Assembly: GCF_025362435.1 (NCBI RefSeq)
Contig: NZ_JANYGL010000143.1
Coordinates: forward strand, 1 to 50,868
Direction of reading: 5' to 3'
Length of the DNA: 50,868 nucleotides
Origin: Polymorphobacter sp.
GTDB taxonomy: Bacteria > Pseudomonadota > Alphaproteobacteria > Sphingomonadales > Sphingomonadaceae
Part shown: piece by piece, positions 36,452 through 48,041 of the stretch
Layout of the letters: the number at the start of each line of letters is the position of its first letter
Position numbering within the stretch: the first letter of the stretch is position 1
The notes under the pieces: generated by a model
Database searches by the model: none
Told to the model about the DNA's origin: nothing
The model's input: only the letters and a program-made list of their open reading frames with translations
Made by a program: the position numbers and the translations under genes

Positions 36452-37387
36452 TTACGAGGCTGGCGGAGTCGCGGGGCTGGCGGGAGCCGACCCGGGCCCG
36501 GTGATGGCTGGCGTCCCAGCGGCCTTGGGGACCGGCGGCGGACCATAGCCGGCGGCGTACTTGATCTTTGCGTCGGATGCCTTCTTGAACGTCGCGAGAT
36601 TGTCGACCAGCGCCTTCTGGACGTTTTCGCGCTGAAGGACCTGCTGCGCGAAGGTAATCGCCGGCTCGCCGGTGAACGGCTGCACCTTCACGTCGGTGAC
36701 CTTGTTGACATACATGATCGGTGCCGGCGCGCCCTGCGGCTGGTCGGCAAACATGAAGACCTCGTTCGGATTGCGCGCAAGGATCTTGCTGATCTCGGCG
36801 ATGAGCGCGGTGTTGACCTGAAGCGCGTCGATCCCGGCGTTGTTGCGACGGAAATCGATCTTGTTCTTGGTCAGGACCGCGGCGACATCGCTCATCGTCT
36901 TGGCGGGTTCGAGCCCGATCGATGAGATGTTCGCCGGCCGCAGGAACTGGATCTGGTCGATCGTGTAGAGCTTACGCTGCGCGAACTGGTCGGGATGCGC
37001 CTCGATATATTTCTCGGCGGCTTCGCGCGTCGGGACCGGCACCTTTTTCGCGATATCGCTCTGCAGCGCCTGGACGAGCAGGCCATCGTCGACCCGGCGC
37101 TGGGCGAGGATGAAGTTCGGATTCTTGTCGAGCTGCCGCTCGCGGGCGACATCGGCAAGCATCTTGCGTTCGATGACGCGGGCGAGGACGACCTGCTCGA
37201 CGGTCTTGCGCGGGACGTCGGCGGGCGGGCGGGCGAGCGACAGCTCCGAGTTGAGCTCGTGAATGGTGATGTCGTCGCCGTTGACCGTGGCGACGACCTG
37301 GCCCTTCGGCGTGTCGCTGCCGCGATTACAGCCCGCGACGAGGGCCACCATGGCCAGACCTGCCGCAATCCGCGCTTTGCCGCTCAT
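36452..37387 (-). CDS. EpsD-type peptidyl-prolyl isomerase lipoprotein
   Basis: A 311-residue lipoprotein: the signal peptide ends in the lipobox LVAGC with the lipidated Cys20. The next part resembles SurA-like N-terminal helices (VVATVNGDDITIHELNSEL, then RKTVEQVVLARVIERKMLAD), ending in a region VPTREAAEKYIEAHPDQFA that fits the parvulin linker, and a Pro/Ala-rich tail. The EpsD family accompanies exosortase-associated EPS clusters and is thought to help fold or place envelope proteins. The start MSGKARIAAG (37387) has GAGG 6 bases upstream and is preferred over the in-frame TTG (37399) and ATG (37393), which lie on the ribosome site. Confidence 0.78.
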   Translation of the reverse strand: MSGKARIAAGLAMVALVAGCNRGSDTPKGQVVATVNGDDITIHELNSELSLARPPADVPRKTVEQVVLARVIERKMLADVARERQLDKNPNFILAQRRVDDGLLVQALQSDIAKKVPVPTREAAEKYIEAHPDQFAQRKLYTIDQIQFLRPANISSIGLEPAKTMSDVAAVLTKNKIDFRRNNAGIDALQVNTALIAEISKILARNPNEVFMFADQPQGAPAPIMYVNKVTDVKVQPFTGEPAITFAQQVLQRENVQKALVDNLATFKKASDAKIKYAAGYGPPPVPKAAGTPAITGPGSAPASPATPPAS

Positions 37388-37395
37388 TGACATCC

Positions 37396-38439
37396 TCAAC
37401 CCCTAGAAACCGTGTTCAGTCGCAGCCCTAGCAGGGCGCGCAACAGGACCAATGCCTTTTTCGGCTGCAAGCGCAAGAGTCGGCGTGCGATCTGGCCGAG
37501 CGCGAGCAGCCAGTGCAACGGCAGCAGCCACATCGCGCGACGCCGGATAAAGCCGAGCCGCGACCGCAGCAGATAATAGTCGGAGGCATCGCTCCGCCGG
37601 CCCTTGACCGCGCTCGAACCAATCGAGCCGCCTTCCTTGTGGTAGACGACGGCGCCATGGGCGAAGGCGATTGTGAACCGGCCGGCGTTGCGCGCTGCCC
37701 AGTCGACTTCCTCGAAATAGAGGAAATAATCCTCGGTCATCGGCCCGACGGTTTCGAAAAAGGCGCGTGAGACACCGAGCGACGCGCCGAGGACGAAGTC
37801 GGTTTCGCGCGCGACTTTGGCCGGGTCGAACGGCGCCGAACCCGGCTGTCCCTCGCCAATGCCGCGCGACTGGCCGGTAAACAGGTTGAAGCGACTCCCG
37901 TTGAGCGCCTGGACGACCTCGGGCCGGTGATAGTAGCGGACGATGGTCCCGCACATCCCGATTTTATGCGTCGCATCCATCCGCGCCAGAAGCGCCATCG
38001 CGGCGTCGGGCTCGACGACGGTGTCGTTGTTGAGCAGCCACGCGTGCCGGATTGCAGGATCGCGAAACAGGAAGCGCAGTCCGATGTTGTTGCCGCCGGC
38101 AAAGCCGCGATTGCTGCCGGCGTCGATCAGCGTCACGTCCGCGCCGTCGGGGCCGGCTGCTGCCGCGGCCGCCGCATCGAGGCGGCACAGAACGATCGGC
38201 TTCGGCGATCCCGGCGTCGACATGTCGGTGAACGCGGGGGACGCGGCTTGCGCCCGGACGATGCCAGCCGCCCAATCGACGATTCGTTCGGGCGAACCAT
38301 CGGTCGACGCATTGTCGACGACGACGATGCGAAGCGGAATCGTCGACCGTAGCAGGGTCTCGAGGCACTCGATCGTGTCTGACCAACCGTTCCAGTTGAC
38401 CAGCACAACACCGAGGCGGGGCGAAGATGCGCCAATCAT
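37396..38439 (-). CDS. Glycosyltransferase family 2
   Basis: A 347-residue GT-A fold glycosyltransferase of family 2, probably adding a sugar to the lipid-linked EPS unit on the cytoplasmic side. It starts with RLGVVLVNWNGWSDTIECLETLL, has VVVDNASTDGS (nucleotide-sugar binding), GSNRGFAGGNNIG, LLNNDTVVEPDAA (the metal-binding DxD-like stretch), and a C-terminal EDYFLYFEEVDWAARN. The NRGFAGGNNIG plus NNDTV pattern is typical of rhamnosyltransferase-like enzymes, which would fit the adjacent dTDP-rhamnose genes; the sugar specificity is inference. An about 50-residue insert at 66-106, rich in Ala and Pro, is unusual. Confidence 0.85.
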   Translation of the reverse strand: MIGASSPRLGVVLVNWNGWSDTIECLETLLRSTIPLRIVVVDNASTDGSPERIVDWAAGIVRAQAASPAFTDMSTPGSPKPIVLCRLDAAAAAAAGPDGADVTLIDAGSNRGFAGGNNIGLRFLFRDPAIRHAWLLNNDTVVEPDAAMALLARMDATHKIGMCGTIVRYYHRPEVVQALNGSRFNLFTGQSRGIGEGQPGSAPFDPAKVARETDFVLGASLGVSRAFFETVGPMTEDYFLYFEEVDWAARNAGRFTIAFAHGAVVYHKEGGSIGSSAVKGRRSDASDYYLLRSRLGFIRRRAMWLLPLHWLLALGQIARRLLRLQPKKALVLLRALLGLRLNTVSRG

Positions 38440-38605: not shown

Positions 38606-39973
38606 TCAGGCGTCGAGACGCGACAGGGCTGCCGACATCAGCAGCAGCGACGCCACGCCGGGATAGCGGTAGCGGAACCGGGTGCCACCGACGGCATCTT
38701 CGCTCTCGAGCAACTCGTGCGCGGTCGCCATCTTGCGCAGGTCGTTCTCGATCGCTGCCGGACCGGGGCCTCCTGGGAGCTCGGCGGCGACGTCCGCAGC
38801 GACGAACCAGCCGTCCGAATAAGTCCCTGCTTCGGCCGCGGCGACGAGCATCGGCCATTGTGCACGCGCTTCGTCCCGGGCGAGCAGCGCCTGGATACGG
38901 CGCGGCAGCGTCGCATTCCATTCGGTCAGGACGCGCTCGACCGCCAGCTTGGCGTGCGTCGGATCGATCTGCGTGCGGCGCTGGTCGAGCGCGGCAATTC
39001 CGGCACGATGCCCGAGCAGCCGGACGAGATACGGCGACCCGTTTGCCAGCGTCGCGATCATCTGCACCGCGGCATCGGTGAAGTTGAGGCCGGCGGCGTC
39101 CTGGCCGAGGTGGAGGATTTCGGCGACTTCGGCGGCGTCGAGCGGACGCATCGGCAGGCCGACGATGTTGCGGCGAATCGAAGGCGCGAAGCCGATCAAC
39201 TCGTCGAGGTTCGACGCGACCCCGGTGACGACAAGCTGCACCCGCGCGGCGCGATCCGAAAGGTTCTTGATGAGTTCGGCGACGTCGCGGCGAAAATGCG
39301 GGTCGGCGATGCGGTCGTATTCGTCGAGGATCAGGATCACGCGGGTGCCGACGACGTCGGCAAAAAGGTCGCTGACCTCACGCGGGCCGAACGGACCGGG
39401 AGGAAGCAGGCTATCGAAGTTGAGCGCCTGCTCGACGGCAACCGTCGTCGGCAGCACGCTGCGGTGATAGAGCATCGGAATCTTCGCCGCGAATGCCCGA
39501 AATATCTCGTCGAAACGCCCGTCGGTGCCGCAGCTGCCGTACAGGACAATATAGCGTGCCTCACGTGCCGTGTCCGCGAAGACATGCGCGAGACTGGTCT
39601 TGCCGATACCGCGCTCGCCATAGACGACAACATGGACGCGCTGTTGCTCGATCGCCGCGATCAGCTGGGCGAGCGCATCGTGCCGGCCCGAGAAGCGATC
39701 GCGCGTCGTTACCGGCTGCGACGCCCCAAGCGTATCGCGCAGGGCGAGGCGCGCGCGCGCCAGCGTCGGCTCCTCGCCGACGCCCTCGACGTCGTCGGAT
39801 GCCATCGCGGTGAAGCGCGGCAGGTCGGAATCGCGCATCGGCGCGGCGTCGTCGAGCCAGAGGGTGTCGAGGAACGCCGGACGCTGGCGCGCGGCCGGTT
39901 CGCCGAAGCCAGCGGGCTGGGGATCGGCTTCGGGCGCTGCGCCGCGGCTCCAGCGTTTGAAAAGGGTCGCCAT
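38606..39973 (-). CDS. AAA+ ATPase of the AAA_16/Orc1-Cdc6-like type, EPS-associated
   Basis: A 455-residue protein. The N-terminal 80 residues are Pro/Asp-rich and low in structure. The ATPase core has the Walker A VVYGERGIGKTSL with Lys125 and the Walker B LILDEYDRI (D217-E218), preceded by RDRFSGRHDALAQLI, the characteristic AAA_16 start. A sensor-like VTGVASNLDELIG and a helical lid follow, and the C-terminal third (about 330-455) looks like a winged-helix segment. I do not know its function. It lies between the EPS arm and the divergent outer-membrane/export arm, so it may be a regulator or a motor of EPS assembly; relatives in sphingomonad EPS loci appear to be conserved, which I have not checked. 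Confidence 0.7.
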   Translation of the reverse strand: MATLFKRWSRGAAPEADPQPAGFGEPAARQRPAFLDTLWLDDAAPMRDSDLPRFTAMASDDVEGVGEEPTLARARLALRDTLGASQPVTTRDRFSGRHDALAQLIAAIEQQRVHVVVYGERGIGKTSLAHVFADTAREARYIVLYGSCGTDGRFDEIFRAFAAKIPMLYHRSVLPTTVAVEQALNFDSLLPPGPFGPREVSDLFADVVGTRVILILDEYDRIADPHFRRDVAELIKNLSDRAARVQLVVTGVASNLDELIGFAPSIRRNIVGLPMRPLDAAEVAEILHLGQDAAGLNFTDAAVQMIATLANGSPYLVRLLGHRAGIAALDQRRTQIDPTHAKLAVERVLTEWNATLPRRIQALLARDEARAQWPMLVAAAEAGTYSDGWFVAADVAAELPGGPGPAAIENDLRKMATAHELLESEDAVGGTRFRYRYPGVASLLLMSAALSRLDA

Positions 39974-40051
39974 GTCGGTCTTACTCCCGCGCGGGCAGCC
40001 GGTTACCACCTCGCGCCGCGCTGTGCCATATGCCACTATTACTGTAACAAC

Positions 40052-40150
40052 GTCCGGTATTCCGCCTCCCTTGCGCAAATTGTCCGGTAGAGCGCAAGCC
40101 CGGATGGTATCGCGGGGGGAGTTGCGGGGGCGACCCCGCACTGCTACCGG
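40052..40150. promoter_or_regulatory. Divergent promoter region with repeated GTCCGGTA sites
   Basis: The 213-base gap between the AAA+ gene (start 39973) and the outer-membrane barrel gene (start 40187) contains GTCCGGTA twice (40052-40059 and 40082-40089), 30 bases apart, about three helical turns, plus a near-complement TACCGGAA at 40145-40152. A 7-base inverted repeat CTTGCGC/GCGCAAG (40070-40076 and 40092-40098) overlaps the second copy. These could be operator sites for a regulator of both EPS arms. It is a guess from the pattern only. Confidence 0.35.
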
Positions 40151-40186
40151 AACGACGGGGTGGGCGCATTGTCGCTGGAGTTTAGC

Positions 40187-41485
40187 TTGAGAAAGAGCGT
40201 TGGACTGCTGGGCACTGCGGGTGCCGTCTTCATGGCATGCTCGCCTGCGCTCGCAGACGGTCTGTCACTCGGTGCGACCGGAACCATAGTGTACGATAGC
40301 AACCAGTTGCGCAGTCTCAACGCGACTGGCCGATCTTCCGAAGACGTCCGCTATTCGCCGGCCGGCACGGCAGGTTACAGCCGCACGCTGGGATTCGGCA
40401 CGGTCGCCGTAAGCGGCCTCGTGGGTCATGATTTTTTCCAGAATAATACCAACCTCGATCGCAACCACTTCGGTGCCGGCGCGTCGCTGAACACCCGCGC
40501 GGGCTCGCGTTGCAGCGCCGGCTTCAATGGTAATTATTCCAATCGGCAAAACGGTATCGGCTCGTCGGATATCATCGTGCCGACTGTCACGGTGCCGTCG
40601 ACGGGCACGCCGATAACGACGGTTCCGGTCGCGACTCCGCTGCCGAGCACCGACGACACGCTTCCTGATGATGTTGGACGCTTGATCGATAACCGCCAGA
40701 TTTCGGTGGTGTACGGCGGGCACATCAATTGCGGGCTGCCCGGCGGGCGAGCGTCGTTCGGCGGCGCTGCCGTGCGCTCGACCCTCGACAATGGCTCTGC
40801 GGTCCGCCGTTTCGCCAACAGCAACTCAACGAGCTACTCGCTGTTCGCCGGGCTTGGCGTGTTTCGCCCTGGCCAGCTTCAGGTCAACGGCAGCTATTCG
40901 ACGATCGATTATCCGAATCGGCTGATTTTGCCGGGGCAGACGGTTTCTCCGATCGGCCTCAATACCGGCGTCAAGATATACCGTGCGGGTCTCTCTTATT
41001 CGCGCCCGATTGGTGCCAGGATAAGCGGATCGGTCGGCGTGTCGTATCTTAGGTCGGTTCCTGCAGGCGGGTTGGCCCCGTACAGCGCTCCGGCGTACGA
41101 CGTCAGCCTGAGCTATCGCGCGACCCCTCGCCTGAGCTTTTCTGCGCTCGGGTCGCGAAGCGTGCTGTCGAGCACCTCGGCCGGCGCCCTGTTCCGGGTG
41201 GTCGACCTTTTCCAGCTGACCACCAATTTCATTGTCAGCGATACGATATCGACGCACGCCAATGTCGGGTTGACCGCGAACAACTACCATCAGCCGTTCG
41301 CAATTCCCGGTGAGGTCGAACGGCGGACCGATTCGTCGAAAATCGTTGGGATTGGAGCAAGCTACTCCCCGCGCTCGCTCTACGATGTCAACGTCCAGGT
41401 CAGCGAAACCTTCCGTTCATCGAACCCCAGTATTTATAACTACAACAGCACCCGGGTGAGCATCAGTCTCTCGGTTCATGTCTAG
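40187..41485 (+). CDS. EpsL-like outer-membrane beta-barrel protein
   Basis: A 432-residue protein with a signal peptide (RKSVGLLGTAGAVFMACSPALA) and a long run of alternating hydrophobic strands ending in RVSISLSVHV, the mark of an outer-membrane barrel. It has no catalytic motif. The layout matches the barrel (EpsL) that accompanies exosortase-linked EPS export, where it may form the outer-membrane channel with the EpsE-like protein. The chosen start is TTG at 40187, with GGAG six bases upstream and directly before the signal peptide; the frame opens earlier, at GTG 40160, with no such site. It is the first gene of the plus-strand EPS arm. Confidence 0.7.
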   Translation: MRKSVGLLGTAGAVFMACSPALADGLSLGATGTIVYDSNQLRSLNATGRSSEDVRYSPAGTAGYSRTLGFGTVAVSGLVGHDFFQNNTNLDRNHFGAGASLNTRAGSRCSAGFNGNYSNRQNGIGSSDIIVPTVTVPSTGTPITTVPVATPLPSTDDTLPDDVGRLIDNRQISVVYGGHINCGLPGGRASFGGAAVRSTLDNGSAVRRFANSNSTSYSLFAGLGVFRPGQLQVNGSYSTIDYPNRLILPGQTVSPIGLNTGVKIYRAGLSYSRPIGARISGSVGVSYLRSVPAGGLAPYSAPAYDVSLSYRATPRLSFSALGSRSVLSSTSAGALFRVVDLFQLTTNFIVSDTISTHANVGLTANNYHQPFAIPGEVERRTDSSKIVGIGASYSPRSLYDVNVQVSETFRSSNPSIYNYNSTRVSISLSVHV

Positions 41486-41500
41486 TCGCAAGGAGCCATC

Positions 41501-42280
41501 ATGCGCCGCTTCTCACTGTTGATCTTCGCCATCATCGCCGCGTGGCTGACCGCAAGCGCGCCGGCGACGGCGAAGGATAGCGGCTACGTTCTTGGCGCGA
41601 ACGATACCATCGCGATCCAGGTCTATGGTCAGCCTGACGCCGGCGTCACGACGCGGATCAAGGCCGACGGCACGATCATCATGCCGCTGATCGGCACCGT
41701 CAAGGCAGCCGGCGCGACGCAGCTCGAGTTGGCCGACACGATCAAGTCGAAGCTCGTCAAAGGCGGTTACTTCAAAGACCCGTTCGTCAACGTCGAGGTC
41801 GCCTCTTACGTGTCTAAGACGGTCAACGTCGCCGGCAAGGTCGCATCCCCCGGCGTCTATCCGCTCGACAAGCCGTACACTGTCTTAGAGATGCTGTTGC
41901 GCTCGGGTTGGCTGCGTGAGCAGGGCGCTTCGTATATTTACCTGCGCCGCGCCAGCGATAGCAAGGAGATCAGGCTCGAGTCCGAAGCCCTGGTTCGCGG
42001 CACGCCCGACAAGAACGTCCAGCTCGAGCCCGGCGACACCCTGTTCGTCCCCGATGCCGATACCTTCTACGTCTACGGCCAGATTGCTCACCCGGGCGCC
42101 TTCGCCATCTCCCCGAACATGACCTTACGCCAGGCGCTGGTTATCGCCGGCGGTGTCACCTCGTCGGGGTCGGAACGCAAAGTTGCATTGATCCGGGGCG
42201 GTGGTAAGGAAGTGAAGGCCGCGATCGACGAACCCGTCCGGAAGGGTGATATCTACATCGTCAAAGAGCGGTTGTTCTAG
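41501..42280 (+). CDS. Polysaccharide export protein (EpsE/Wza-like)
   Basis: A 259-residue protein of the poly-export family. After a signal peptide (LLIFAIIAAWLTASAPATA), the PES domain reads GYVLGANDTIAIQVYGQPD through IMPLIGTVKAAGATQLELA, then two SLBB-like beta-grasp repeats (VNVAGKVASPGVYPL and FYVYGQIAHPGAFAI). It resembles periplasmic EpsE more than full Wza: no lipobox cysteine and no C-terminal outer-membrane helix. It works with the EpsF-like protein below to move EPS out. An AGGAG ribosome site precedes the ATG. Confidence 0.88.
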   Translation: MRRFSLLIFAIIAAWLTASAPATAKDSGYVLGANDTIAIQVYGQPDAGVTTRIKADGTIIMPLIGTVKAAGATQLELADTIKSKLVKGGYFKDPFVNVEVASYVSKTVNVAGKVASPGVYPLDKPYTVLEMLLRSGWLREQGASYIYLRRASDSKEIRLESEALVRGTPDKNVQLEPGDTLFVPDADTFYVYGQIAHPGAFAISPNMTLRQALVIAGGVTSSGSERKVALIRGGGKEVKAAIDEPVRKGDIYIVKERLF

Positions 42281-42316: not shown

Positions 42317-43720
42317 ATGAGTATCGCACAGTTTCTGCGCATCTTGATGGCGCGCCGATTGGTCATTCTTGCGACTTTGTTCGTGGGATTGGTGATCGCC
42401 GTGTCGCTGTGCTTCATCCTGAAGCCGCGCTTTCCGGCTACCGCACGCATTTTGATGGATGTGATCAAGCCCGACCCGGTGTCGGGTACCGTCATCGCCT
42501 CGAGCTTCATTCGTGGATATACCCGGACCCAGATCGAGTTGATTACCGACTACCGCGTTGCAGGTGATGTCGTCGACCGGCTTGGATGGGAGAAGAACCC
42601 ATTGATGGTTGAGGACTTCAAGAAGAACTCGAATGGGACCGAAGACTTCCGGCGCTACAAGGCGCGCGGGATCATCGACAACACCGACGCTTCGCTGGTC
42701 GAGGGAAGCAATATCCTCGAGATCACCTATACCGCGGGCAACCCGATCATTGCTCGCACTGTCGCGAGCGCACTTCGTTCGGCGTATATCGATGCGAGCC
42801 TCCGCTTCCGGACCGACGCGGCAGGGCGCTCCGCTGATTGGTATGTCGATCAGGCGCGCAAGGCACAGGCCACGCTGGCGAGCGCTGAAGCCAAGAAATC
42901 GGCTTATGAGCGCGAGAACGGCATCGTCATGGCTCCCGGTGGTGCCGACTCCGAAACGATGAAGCTCGAAGGCATGCAGAGCGCACTGCTTTCGGCGCGC
43001 ACCGCTGCCGGCATGGTCGATAGCAACAAGGATATCCGTGCCGATCAAAGCGGGGCAGTGACGTCGATCCGGTCGCAGTTGAACGGTGTCGAGGATTCGC
43101 TGGCGCTGGCGAGCCAGAAGCTGGGCACGTCGCACCCGACCTACATCGCGCTGGCACAACGTAAAGCTGTCCTGCAGCAACAGCTCGCGCGTGAAACCGC
43201 GCTGGCGCATTCACAGGGCGGTAGCAGCGCGTCGGCGAGCCAGTCGAACGCGGCGCGCCTCGAAGCGGAAGTTACGGCCCAAAAGACGAAGGTCCTCGCG
43301 CTCAAGCCCAAGCTCGACGACCTGGCGCAGCTGCAGCGCGAGGTCGATTTGCGGCGGTCGCAGTATGAAAAGGCGGCATCGCGGGCAGCCGACCTCAAGC
43401 TCGAGGCCGATGTTTCCGAAACCGGCTTGGTGCCACTGGGCGATGCTGTGGTCAGCGGTGTTCCGGCGTTCCCCAACAAGCCGCTGATCCTCGCACTTGG
43501 TGCAGCAGGTGGGCTCGGGCTCGGCATTATCTTTGCAATCGCCGCCGAGCTCCTGTCGCGGCGTGTTCGCGGGCCGGAGGATCTCGCCCGGGCGTCGAAG
43601 GTCGCCGTTCTTGCGGTGATCTCGGGTCCGGTGCGAATGAGCTTTGGTCAGCGCGTGCTTCGTTTCTTCCATATCGGCGGCGAGACCCCGCCCGCGACTG
43701 GACTGTTACCCGCTCGATGA
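42317..43720 (+). CDS. Chain-length determinant protein (EpsF/Wzz-like)
   Basis: A 467-residue inner-membrane protein with an N-terminal helix (LVILATLFVGLVIAVSLCFIL) and a second one near residues 385-405 (LILALGAAGGLGLGIIFAIAAELL). Between them are a Wzz-type domain and long coiled coils rich in Ala, Glu, Lys and Gln. This is the polysaccharide co-polymerase layout, which controls EPS chain length. A soluble cytoplasmic part of about 40 residues follows, and the ATP-binding partner is a separate gene next door, coupled by ATGA. Confidence 0.85.
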   Translation: MSIAQFLRILMARRLVILATLFVGLVIAVSLCFILKPRFPATARILMDVIKPDPVSGTVIASSFIRGYTRTQIELITDYRVAGDVVDRLGWEKNPLMVEDFKKNSNGTEDFRRYKARGIIDNTDASLVEGSNILEITYTAGNPIIARTVASALRSAYIDASLRFRTDAAGRSADWYVDQARKAQATLASAEAKKSAYERENGIVMAPGGADSETMKLEGMQSALLSARTAAGMVDSNKDIRADQSGAVTSIRSQLNGVEDSLALASQKLGTSHPTYIALAQRKAVLQQQLARETALAHSQGGSSASASQSNAARLEAEVTAQKTKVLALKPKLDDLAQLQREVDLRRSQYEKAASRAADLKLEADVSETGLVPLGDAVVSGVPAFPNKPLILALGAAGGLGLGIIFAIAAELLSRRVRGPEDLARASKVAVLAVISGPVRMSFGQRVLRFFHIGGETPPATGLLPAR

Positions 43721-44607
43721 ACACATCCCCGACAAGTCTGACGACCGCCGTCAGCGACGGCAGTGTCCGCGCCGATGCGCCGATCCGTGACGCGCTCTTG
43801 CGGCTGGGTCTGCTAACCGACGAGGAGGCGGCGCGGGTCGCCGAACATCAAGCGGCGCAAGGGGTCGATTTCGACCAGGCCGCGCTTCAGCTCGGCTTCA
43901 TCGGCGCCGAGGAGCTCGATCGCGCGCGTGATCAGCTGGTCAACAGTCTGGCGCTTCAGGAAGACCCGCGACGCGAGGTCTCCAGCGAGCTTGTTGTTCT
44001 CAGCGATCCCGTCAGCGCCAAAGCGGAGTCGATCCGGCTGTTGCGGACGCAGGTCATCGCGCAGCACATCAAGCCCGGCCGCCGTGCAATGGCGTTCGTC
44101 GCGCCGGTCGACGGCGTCGGCTGCAGCTATTTGATTGCCAACCTTGCTGCCGCGCTTTCGCAGGTCGGTACCAAGACCCTGCTCGTCGACAGCAATCTGC
44201 GCTCGCCGCGCATCGACCAGATCTTCGGCCTCGCCGCGAACGGTCCGGGCCTGTCGAGTTATCTGTCGCTGCAGGTCTCGCGCCCCGAGCGCGTGATTCA
44301 CGCGAACGTGCTGCCCAACCTGTCGGTGATCACCGCGGGTCCGCCAGTGGCGCGTCCGCAGGAGTTGCTGTCGAGCACGCGGTTTCGCGATGGTATGAAC
44401 ATGCTTTTGCGCGAATACGACATTGCGCTGTTCGACACGCCGGCGGCGAACAGCTGTGCCGACGCGCTGACGATCGCCTCGGTGATCGGCTATGCAGTAA
44501 TCGTCGCCCGCCGCGATAAAACATTCGTCGGGGATGTCGCAACGCTGGCCGGGCAGCTTGCCTCGGCTCGCAGTTCGGTCGTCGGTTCGGTCCTGAGCGA
44601 ATTCTGA
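43717..44607 (+). CDS. EpsG-like P-loop protein with degenerate Walker A (bacterial tyrosine-kinase family)
   Basis: A 296-residue protein of the CpsD/CapB/EpsG family, which normally phosphorylates tyrosines and, with the co-polymerase, controls EPS assembly. The first 75 residues hold two helix-turn units (IRDALLRLGLLTDEEAARVAEHQ and FDQAALQLGFIGAEELDRARDQ) resembling the MshEN/GspE N-terminal domain. In the ATPase domain the Walker A position reads PVDGVGCSYLIANLA, with Cys136 where the catalytic lysine should be; the Walker A' is LLVDSNLRSPRID (D158, N160) and Walker B IALFDTPAANSCADAL (D240). There is no tyrosine-rich tail. EpsG relatives in other phyla have Arg at the lysine position, so loss of kinase activity may be a family trait. 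It overlaps the co-polymerase gene by 4 bases. Confidence 0.82.
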   Translation: MNTSPTSLTTAVSDGSVRADAPIRDALLRLGLLTDEEAARVAEHQAAQGVDFDQAALQLGFIGAEELDRARDQLVNSLALQEDPRREVSSELVVLSDPVSAKAESIRLLRTQVIAQHIKPGRRAMAFVAPVDGVGCSYLIANLAAALSQVGTKTLLVDSNLRSPRIDQIFGLAANGPGLSSYLSLQVSRPERVIHANVLPNLSVITAGPPVARPQELLSSTRFRDGMNMLLREYDIALFDTPAANSCADALTIASVIGYAVIVARRDKTFVGDVATLAGQLASARSSVVGSVLSEF

Positions 44608-44609
44608 CA

Positions 44610-45491
44610 GTGGCGACGATCGCTGACCACAGCCGGCGGACGGTCGACTGGACGCGGCTGCTGTCGCTGCACGCCATACTTTTCGTCGGCGCCACGGCGA
44701 TGTTCCTGCCGACGATCGCCAGTCTTGGCGCCGGGCCATGGTCGACGGAAGCCGGCGTGCATGGCCCGCTCGTCCTCGCCACGGGCATCTGGCTGATCGT
44801 TCGCCGCAGCGCAGAGATTCGTGCGGCGGCCGCGCCGGGATCGCTCGGCATCGCGGTCGCCGCGATGCTGGTCGCCGCGGTCGGCTACATTTTCGGACGC
44901 GCGTTCGATTTCATCAGCATTGAGGTCGCCTCGATGCTGCTCGCCTACTTGGCGGTCGCGTATAGCTTTCTCGGCGCCGCCGTGCTGCGATTGATGTGGT
45001 TTCCGATCGTCTATCTCGCGTTCATGATCCCGATCCCGGGCTCGGTGCTTGACACCGCTACACAGCCGCTCAAGGCTGTCGTGTCGCAATCGGTCACCGC
45101 GGTCCTTGGCAGCTTTGGCTATCCGGTCGCGCGGGTGGGCGTGACGATCTATGTCGCGCAGTACCAGCTGCTCGTTGAAGATGCGTGTGCCGGACTGAAC
45201 TCCTTGATCAGCCTGACCGCGATCGGCCTGTTCTACGTCTATGTCATGCGCAACACCAACTGGCGCTACTCGGTCCTGTTGCTGGTTCTCGTTCTGCCGA
45301 TTGCGATCCTGGCGAACTGTATTCGCGTAGCGGCACTGGTGTTGCTGACGTATTATTTCGGCGACGCGGTGGCGCAGGGCTTCCTGCACAAATTTGCCGG
45401 GATGGTGACATTTACCTCGGCGCTTTTGTTCATCTTCCTCATTGATGCCCTGCTTAGTCCGGTCCGGGCATGGCTCGAGAAATCACGATGA
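44610..45491 (+). CDS. xrtV: Exosortase (XrtV-type), membrane cysteine peptidase
   Basis: A 293-residue protein with about eight membrane helices and the exosortase catalytic triad: Cys193 in VEDACAGLNSL, Arg239 in ANCIRVAALVLL and His260 in FLHKFAG. Exosortases process proteins with PEP-CTERM tails at the membrane and are found with EPS genes. The XrtV assignment comes from the sphingomonad-like gene set (EpsI and a small convergent protein) and the PEPxxWA substrate at 11.75-12.55 kb, not from a search. It starts with GTG 3 bases after the EpsG-like gene and overlaps epsI as ATGA. Confidence 0.85.
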   Translation: MATIADHSRRTVDWTRLLSLHAILFVGATAMFLPTIASLGAGPWSTEAGVHGPLVLATGIWLIVRRSAEIRAAAAPGSLGIAVAAMLVAAVGYIFGRAFDFISIEVASMLLAYLAVAYSFLGAAVLRLMWFPIVYLAFMIPIPGSVLDTATQPLKAVVSQSVTAVLGSFGYPVARVGVTIYVAQYQLLVEDACAGLNSLISLTAIGLFYVYVMRNTNWRYSVLLLVLVLPIAILANCIRVAALVLLTYYFGDAVAQGFLHKFAGMVTFTSALLFIFLIDALLSPVRAWLEKSR

Positions 45492-46189
45492 TCGATCGGC
45501 GCGATGTCCTCCTTGGCGGCGGCATGCTGGTTGCGGCGGCTGGCGCGGCGGCTTTGACCCCGCGCCACCATGTCGAGCTCCTCCACGGCCGCAAGCTCGA
45601 TTCGATCATCCCGCAATCGTTCGGGGCGTGGAGCATGACGCCATCGAGCGCTTTCGTATTGCCCAAGACGCCCGGGAGCCTTGCCGACCGGCTGTATAGC
45701 GACACCGTCAGTCGCCTTTACGTCGCGCCAAATCAGCTACCGGTCATGATGGTGCTCGCCTACGGCAATCTCCAGAGCGACCTGCTCCAGCTCCACCGCC
45801 CCGAGACGTGCTATGCGGCGGTCGGCTTCCAGATCTCCAACTCGACGCGCACCGAGCTTGCGGTTGCGCCGCGCGTCGCGATCCCGCTCCGCGAGCTGAC
45901 GGCTTCGACCGATAACCGGGTGGAGCCGATCGCCTACTGGACGCGAATCGGCGACTTCCTGCCCACCGACAAGCACGAACAGCGGACCATGCGCTTGAAG
46001 GAACAGTTGGCCGGGATCATCCCCGACGGGATTCTCGTGCGTCTGTCGACGGTCGCCGAACCCACCCCGGAGACCTTTGCTGTTTTGACTGCATTTGGTC
46101 GTGCGCTGGTGCTTGGAATCAAGCCTGCGGATCGTGGCATCCTGATCGGCCAGACACTTTCCGCCAACCTTGCACGGTTGGGCGTTTAG
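45488..46189 (+). CDS. EpsI family protein, exosortase-associated
   Basis: A 233-residue EpsI-type protein directly after the exosortase. The start MIDRRDVLLGGGMLVAAAGAAAL resembles a Tat-type signal (RR-x-x-L-L), making it periplasmic or membrane-anchored. The conserved segment LQLHRPETCYAAVGF contains the family's invariant cysteine, and a later KEQLAGIIPDGILVRLS is typical. EpsI probably assists the exosortase or matures its substrates. In other systems the domain is fused to the exosortase; here it is separate. Confidence 0.82.
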   Translation: MIDRRDVLLGGGMLVAAAGAAALTPRHHVELLHGRKLDSIIPQSFGAWSMTPSSAFVLPKTPGSLADRLYSDTVSRLYVAPNQLPVMMVLAYGNLQSDLLQLHRPETCYAAVGFQISNSTRTELAVAPRVAIPLRELTASTDNRVEPIAYWTRIGDFLPTDKHEQRTMRLKEQLAGIIPDGILVRLSTVAEPTPETFAVLTAFGRALVLGIKPADRGILIGQTLSANLARLGV

Positions 46190-46428: not shown

Positions 46429-46595
46429 CGATCTTCCCCAAAACAATCCCACGCCACTTAAGCGTCGGTACACCAGTACACAGTATCGAGGCTACAGCCA
46501 TTGGTTGACAAAGCAACTCGCGGAACGACCCGGCTTGGCATGATGCCGGGCCATCGCCTCGGTGGTCCGACACTCGGGGCAGCGATTTGAATGAA

Positions 46596-48041
46596 ATGAA
46601 TCCGAGAAAGGTGGCAGGGGCGTCGAACGGCAAGACGGCCATTCCGCTCGATGCCGTTATCTTGACCGTCCGGGCGGTCGAATTTGCGCTGGTCATCATC
46701 TCCGGGATGTTCGCGAGTTCGATGCTCGTGCCCCCCGAAGTGGAGTCGGGGCCGATTTATTCGCGGATCGTGTTCGTCGCAGCAGTGGCGTTCGCCGTTC
46801 TCGCCGAGACCGTCGGCAGCTACGACATCGAGGCGCAATTTTCGCTGCGTCAGGCGTGGCAGCGCGTCGCGACCGCATGGGTGACGACGACGCTGTTCCT
46901 CGTCACGCTCGGATTTCTTCTCAAGGCGTCGGACCAAGTGTCGCGCGAATGGGCTTTCGGCTGGTTCATGACCGGCGGCGCGCTCCTGCTGTCGAGCCGC
47001 CTGGCGATGACGATTTGGGTCCGGCGGCTGAAGCGCCAGGGCATTTTCAACCAGCGCGTCGCGATCTTTGGGGCAGGGCCACAGGGCGCCCGGCTGGCGA
47101 ACTACATCCTGACGACCGACAAGCTGACGATCACGCTTGTCGGCTTTTATGATGATCGGCTCGACGGGCGTGTGCCGACGTCGCACCACGGTATTCCCGT
47201 TCTCGGTAATCTGACCGGACTGATGGCGGCGATTCGGGGCGGAGGGATCGATCAGGTTATCGTCGCGCTGCCGTGGTCCGCCGAGGCGCGGCTTCAGGCG
47301 GTTGTCGGGCGGCTTGCCTTGACCCCGGTCCGGATCCGGCTGGCACCCGATCTCGCCAGCTTCGTCTTTGCCCGCCGGCCGGTCGTGCTGCTCGGCGATA
47401 TGCCGGTGATGACGCTGTTCGAGCGTCCGATCTCGGGGGTCGACGCCTGGGTCAAGGCGGCCGAGGACCGCATTCTCGCCGTGCTGTCACTCGTTCTTCT
47501 CGGTGTTCCGATGCTGTTGATCGCCCTGGCTATCAGGCTCGATTCGCCGGGCCCGGTGTTTTTCCGGCAGGCGCGCGAGGGGTTCAATAACCGTCCATTC
47601 CGCGTCTACAAGTTCCGGACGATGTTCCACAACCGGTCGCAAGACTCGGATATCATTCAGGCGCAGCGGCGCGATCCGCGAATTACCCGCGTCGGTGCGA
47701 TCCTCCGCCGGACGAGCCTCGACGAACTGCCGCAGCTTATCAACGTGTTGCGCGGCGATATGTCGGTGGTTGGGCCGCGGCCGCATGCGGCTTCTACTCG
47801 GGCGGGGGGAAGGTTGTTTTCGGATGTGTTGTCGTCGTATGCGGCGCGGCACAAGGTCAAGCCGGGGATCACCGGCTGGGCGCAGGTGTGTGGCTGGCGG
47901 GGTCAGACCGACACTGAGGAAAAGCTCGTAAAGCGCTTTGAACACGACCTTTATTATATCGAGAACTGGTCGATCTGGTTCGACTTCTACGTCCTTTGCC
48001 GCACCGTCGTCGCGGTGATCCTGCCCCGCAACGCCTTTTGA
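46596..48041 (+). CDS. Exopolysaccharide polyprenyl glycosylphosphotransferase (initiating sugar transferase)
   Basis: A 481-residue membrane enzyme of the PssY/EpsB/WcaJ type, which moves a sugar-1-phosphate onto undecaprenyl phosphate to start the EPS unit. The N-terminal half has four membrane helices and a CoA-binding-like domain ([19 protein letters not shown]). A fifth helix ([20 protein letters not shown]) precedes the catalytic domain, with [45 protein letters not shown] and [17 protein letters not shown]. The first sugar (probably glucose) is inference. The ATG at 46596 is preferred over TTG at 46587; the ribosome site is weak. Confidence 0.92.

Follow-up and report, generated by a model that had tools for sequence, protein, structure and literature searches.

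Clade-wide predicted BY pseudokinase in sphingomonad exopolysaccharide loci, with a partly retained nucleotide site, a decayed MshEN-like module and a constant AAA+ companion

The EpsG-like protein encoded at positions 43717 to 44607 on the forward strand of contig NZ_JANYGL010000143.1 of Polymorphobacter sp. (50,868 nucleotides, analysed as a whole and called the window here) is best explained as a stand-alone BY pseudokinase that serves as the cytoplasmic subunit of the co-polymerase EpsF and aids its assembly and work without tyrosine phosphorylation, a reading to which we give a probability of roughly 0.8. Under this explanation, EpsG would preserve the fold of a BY-kinase together with the contacts that form the ring, would sit beneath the separate co-polymerase EpsF, and would help it to assemble and act in Wzy-dependent exopolysaccharide export; it would probably hold a Mg-nucleotide as a structural ligand, by analogy with the ADP-Mg in the ring of the CapB K55M mutant. 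We infer its kinase inactivity, EpsF binding and ring formation from sequence comparison. Across the clade, the same comparison describes a predicted BY pseudokinase whose nucleotide site is partly retained, whose c-di-GMP module has decayed, and whose AAA+ companion is constant. A preliminary description of this gene had proposed a pseudokinase, and had also regarded the cysteine at the site of the Walker A lysine as a further departure within the family, possibly signalling a different nucleotide mechanism; the former part is supported, but neither a special role for the cysteine nor a different nucleotide chemistry is.

The gene belongs to a locus with the order EpsL-EpsE-EpsF-EpsG-XrtV-EpsI-WcaJ, all on the forward strand. 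Upstream of it are an EpsL-like outer-membrane beta-barrel protein (40160 to 41485; weak TIGR03014 match, BBP2_2), an EpsE-like outer-membrane export protein (41501 to 42280; TIGR03028, Poly_export, SLBB) and the EpsF-like co-polymerase of the PCP-2b type (42317 to 43720; TIGR03017, 253 bits), which consists of the Wzz and GNVR domains only and has no kinase domain. The stop codon of epsF and the start codon of epsG share 4 bases (ATGA). Downstream are the exosortase XrtV (44610 to 45491; NF035943, 365.6 bits, cut-off 313), an EpsI of the V-type (45470 to 46189; NF045608, 268.9 bits, cut-off 228) and a WcaJ-like undecaprenyl-phosphate glucose phosphotransferase (46587 to 48041; TIGR03023, 474.9 bits, above the cut-off). 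The opposite strand carries an AAA+ ATPase (38606 to 40141), a GT2, an EpsD-like peptidyl-prolyl isomerase (36452 to 37399; TIGR02925, 100 bits, cut-off 108.9) and a flippase. The order EpsF-EpsG-XrtV-EpsI is present in most of the sphingomonad loci that we compared; in L025 (genome G216) the EpsG frame runs on into the XrtV frame, probably through an assembly frameshift. A literature search for XrtV returned no paper.

The epsG reading frame has no internal stops and its translation is 296 residues long. The protein scores 206.1 bits against TIGR03029, short of the curated cut-off of 313.8, and the Pfam scan of it (P0001) gave matches that were all under the curated cut-offs. Its PDB matches include BceF (5e-24), CapB (7.5e-24 to 7.1e-23) and also Wzc, and the best PDB alignment of a profile built from 44 relatives is to CapB. 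In this profile alignment the Cys column falls on the catalytic-lysine position, occupied by Lys in 3bfv and by Met in the K55M mutant 2ved, confirming the register in which Cys136 (codon TGC, 44122 to 44124) of the Walker A core GVGCS (residues 133-137; 44113 to 44127) had been placed at the BY-kinase lysine site. The Walker A' motif LLVDSNLR (44179 to 44202) retains Asp158 and has Asn160 in place of its second Asp, as had been read before; Asp240 is retained in the Walker B motif IALFD (44422 to 44436). The sequence ESIRLLR (residues 104-110; 44026 to 44046) corresponds to the EX2RX2R ring-interface motif, the role of which is described in PMC3795738. The last Tyr is Y259, so that a C-terminal Tyr cluster is absent, in line with the lack of a tyrosine-rich tail noted at the outset. 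The protein thus resembles BY-kinases of the CpsD/CapB type in fold similarity, Asp240 and EX2RX2R, but lacks their Walker A Lys, second Walker A' Asp and Tyr cluster; with BY pseudokinases of the HfsB/EcpK type it shares a fold devoid of the catalytic Lys and Tyr tail, and an adjoining kinase-less PCP. An AlphaFold2 model built from 12 close sequences had a mean pLDDT of 46.6, too poor for inspection of the pocket.

The alignment with homologues that had been proposed as a check (alignment A1, comprising Glacieibacterium, Polymorphobacter and Sandarakinorhabdus records and MAGs) has Cys136 in 12 of 12 rows, and the four other members of the genus with an EpsG gene all have Cys at this site. 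A sequencing error at 44122, a wrong frame or a wrong start is therefore excluded.

We counted the residues at site 136 among EpsG proteins after collapsing rows with identical last 200 residues, and left out the ParA/Mrp-like rows L003, L044, L045, L162 and L163, a row cut by a contig end (L071), two misaligned fused proteins (L079 and L080) and the Wzc-like protein of the window's own genome (L002). In the resulting 72 stand-alone rows of the window's order, the site is occupied by Cys (44), Ala (10), Thr (7), Val (4), Ser (3), Arg (3) or Leu (1), and never by Lys. The other EpsG-bearing order, that of genome G678, which we take to be Burkholderiales, contributes 76 rows with Arg (31), Ala (11), Lys (11), Thr (6), Val (5), Cys (5), Ser (4) and three singletons. 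Of the 53 rows sampled that exceed the TIGR03029 cut-off (L084-L087, L131-L159 and L168-L187), 25 have Arg, which agrees with the earlier remark that other EpsG proteins carry Arg here, 27 have other residues, and one has Lys. Since Lys occurs in only one of these 53 rows, the curated name 'tyrosine kinase EpsG' is mostly applied to proteins that lack the catalytic lysine. As a control, 29 rows of fused PCP-2a kinases comprise 26 with Lys, two that are misaligned and one that is the lysine-less copy of the window's genome. Furthermore, all 22 non-EpsG BY-kinase loci taken from other EpsG-bearing genomes have Lys together with 2 to 8 tail Tyr, which indicates, at the level of sequence, that the lysine loss is specific to EpsG. 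Our literature search, for which subscription journals were mostly beyond reach, found no paper describing that EpsG has lost this lysine.

To the loss of Lys across the clade can be added the second Walker A' Asp, which is mostly gone, the missing Tyr tail and the separate kinase-less co-polymerase, and no low-molecular-weight tyrosine phosphatase was found in the window's genome (G000, 97% complete); these features together favor the predicted pseudokinase. The remainder of the site is well kept. Within the window's order, 64 rows show a recognisable P-loop but neither Lys nor Arg; of these, Gly135 is found in 63, Ser/Thr137 in 62, Asp158 in 63 and Asp240 in 62, and the ring motif retains Glu104 in 62, Arg107 in 55 and Arg110 in 61, although EX2RX2R is incomplete in 14 of all 72 rows. 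Residual catalysis by an unusual route could explain the retention of Gly135, Ser/Thr137, Asp158 and Asp240, and an alternative in keeping with their near invariance is that EpsG is a nucleotide hydrolase or switch, which needs no lysine to bind Mg-ATP (or another nucleotide) and drives the cycling of EpsF by slow hydrolysis. CapB K55M, which is lysine-less, was crystallised as an octamer with ADP-Mg still bound (PMC3795738); therefore, loss of the lysine need cost neither the ring nor the nucleotide. The same paper reports CapB1 to be inactive in vitro despite retaining its Lys, which means that the link between motif and activity is not strict. However, several different small residues replace the Lys, residue 160 is Asn in 54 of the 64 rows (Asp160 is retained in 29 of the 31 Arg-type rows of the other order), and the P-loop is wholly gone in five further sphingomonad EpsG rows, a related group of which one member lies beside the same partner genes. 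We consider the hydrolase unlikely for these reasons.

A less probable alternative keeps the phosphorylation but moves it to another protein, so that EpsG would be one part of a heteromer whose catalysis comes from another, active BY-kinase in the cell. BY-kinase rings do phosphorylate between neighbours (PMC12004946), and Wzc-type kinases with Lys exist in related genomes. However, EpsG is the sole TIGR01007 match (E up to 1e-20) in 18 of 43 EpsG genomes, and it lacks the Tyr tail itself. The only other strong BY-kinase-like protein of the window's genome is a Wzc-like PCP-2a paralogue on contig C12 (L002/L161), which has a Tyr-rich tail, but in which Ile replaces the Walker A Lys and Ala the Walker B Asp. 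Genome G001 has a match about as weak as that of this paralogue. Taken together, these observations make such a heteromer improbable.

The history of the site was reconstructed on a tree of 169 rows, computed with the motif columns excluded and with L025 and the five P-loop-less rows left out. On this tree, the state Lys/Arg versus other changes 5 times and site 136 itself 37 times, which makes the loss of the lysine an ancient and infrequent event; the later changes at the site look like drift among small uncharged residues. Cys versus non-Cys changes 11 times. The proposal that Cys136 is a chemical switch in the P-loop, working through redox, metal or thioester chemistry, is very improbable: Cys is indeed found more often than any other residue (44 of 64 rows) and is invariant in the 12 close homologues, but Ala, Thr, Val and Ser interchange with it in lysine-less relatives that share the locus and the AAA+ partner, and the 11 changes go along with merely average conservation of the column (89 of the 202 alignment columns of the 64-row subset surpass it). 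These results also lend no support to the cysteine as a meaningful further departure or as a sign of different nucleotide chemistry; on this sequence evidence, Cys136 appears to be one of a number of small uncharged residues that the site accepts, and no catalytic thiol. Asp160 is present in 42 of 45 Lys/Arg rows versus 17 of 103 others, but this is a raw association: as the trait changes only 5 times and offers 2 to 5 independent pairs, the coupling is inseparable from ancestry, and we dropped it as proof. The three Arg rows of the window's order (L069, L070 and L072) come from a single genus, g29, and are nested within the Arg group of the other order, which suggests lateral transfer.

N-terminal to the kinase-like domain, residues 22-74 of EpsG (43780 to 43938) fit the MshEN register without gaps, as two 24-residue motifs and a 5-residue spacer, 53 residues in all, and the profiles of both EpsG sets match the N-terminal structure of MshE (5htl). 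Of eight key residues, chosen by us after the MshEN motif given in PMC5013675, the window's protein keeps three and the 21 rows of its clade two or three, whereas the rows of the other order keep 4 to 8, mostly 6 or 7. Likewise, NF053729, the model of the MshE-type c-di-GMP motif domain, matches 76 of 76 EpsG proteins of the other order and 25 of 44 rows of the window's order, and has no match in the window's EpsG (P0001). In XpsE, several changes of such residues accompany the loss of binding (PMC5013675). The domain therefore looks like a decayed MshEN module, which would make the window's EpsG doubly decayed, and we predict that it does not bind c-di-GMP. We do not regard the MshEN domain in EpsG as a new finding, since the MshEN proteins listed in PMC5013675 already include one from Methylobacillus sp. 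that belongs to exopolysaccharide production.

The AAA+ ATPase encoded on the opposite strand matched no specific NCBIfam model, but its Walker A (GERGIGKT) and Walker B (DEYD) motifs are intact. Such motifs (GERGIGKT or close variants, and DEYD or DEFD) are intact in 23 of 24 homologous rows; the motif of the 24th (L216) is unreadable, as the stretch was wrongly chosen, and the row was left out of alignment A2, in the 23 rows of which Lys181, Asp273 and Glu274 are invariant. The homologues suggest a start near 39973, so the start listed for the reading frame probably lies some 56 codons upstream of the true one. Among 397 genomes of the window's family, the ATPase is found in 58 of 58 that have a stand-alone EpsG without Lys or Arg (counting G162, whose EpsG ends before the P-loop) versus 11 of the 339 others; these 11 comprise a genome whose fused kinase carries Lys and ten that have no EpsG match (E up to 1e-20). 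At 53 of 59 EpsG loci it lies within 20 kb on the same contig, and at the other six it is on another contig of a fragmented assembly. Where a genus contains both kinds of member, as g7, g43 and g91 do, its presence agrees with that of EpsG, and it also occurs in all five genomes with EpsG from a second family of the order. It was found in none of the three g29 genomes, the Arg-type EpsG loci of which are without this partner, and in none of the 71 EpsG genomes of the other order, many of which lack Lys or Arg. The latter result rules out that the ATPase simply tracks lysine loss; it is therefore not a general consequence of that loss, and the link is lineage-specific. At least part of the co-occurrence is explained by shared inheritance of one cluster.

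Among characterized systems, HfsB of Caulobacter crescentus (partner HfsA) and EcpK of Myxococcus xanthus (partner EpsV) are stand-alone BY pseudokinases with kinase-less PCP-2 partners, for which a scaffold role has been proposed (PMC12004946). HfsB is like EpsG in lacking catalytic residues and a Tyr tail and in adjoining its co-polymerase, but it belongs to the holdfast pathway, the likeness is drawn from its published description, and the accessible part of that description mentions no MshEN-like N-terminal module. EcpK has lost all three Walker motifs, whereas in EpsG the lysine and the second Walker A' Asp are gone and the other motif residues remain. CapB K55M (2ved) shares the missing lysine, but is a laboratory mutant with its Tyr cluster present (PMC3795738). 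The TIGR03029 EpsG family has the same EpsF and exosortase neighbours and the same layout of MshEN and BY-kinase fold, but Arg is present in many members, the MshEN residues are mostly intact there, and the window's protein falls below its cut-off. Finally, a locus of the window's family (L240:3748-8073) has the order AAA+, EpsF, EpsG without P-loop, and WecG, matching prmE-prmF-prmG-prmH in the promonan cluster of Sphingomonas sp. LM7, where deletion of prmE, prmF or prmG abolished exopolysaccharide; unlike the window's locus, the prm table has no exosortase (PMC11340318). PrmG (BXU08_RS00380) is CapB-like and can be likened to EpsG by gene order and description. The authors took it as a 'bonified' BYK and remarked on PrmE as a second required ATPase, the need for which was left open because PrmG was regarded as a true BY-kinase (PMC11340318).

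If PrmG is also a pseudokinase, the second-ATPase puzzle of the promonan locus would shrink, and the linked AAA+ ATPase is a concrete candidate for the missing motor. A tentative extension, which we hold to be possible and rather doubtful, is that in sphingomonads EpsG has become an inert ring scaffold that responds neither to phosphorylation nor, in this clade, to c-di-GMP, and that the PrmE-like AAA+ ATPase of the locus supplies an NTP-driven cycle of assembly and disassembly; if true, this would amount to an engine swap, in which the ATPase replaces the cycle driven elsewhere by tyrosine phosphorylation. Phosphorylation cycles of the Wzc and CapB kind are the textbook account of how PCP-2 co-polymerases act. 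The predicted pseudokinases described here form a large, clade-wide set of natural lysine-less proteins, which may show how such a co-polymerase machine can run without phosphorylation.
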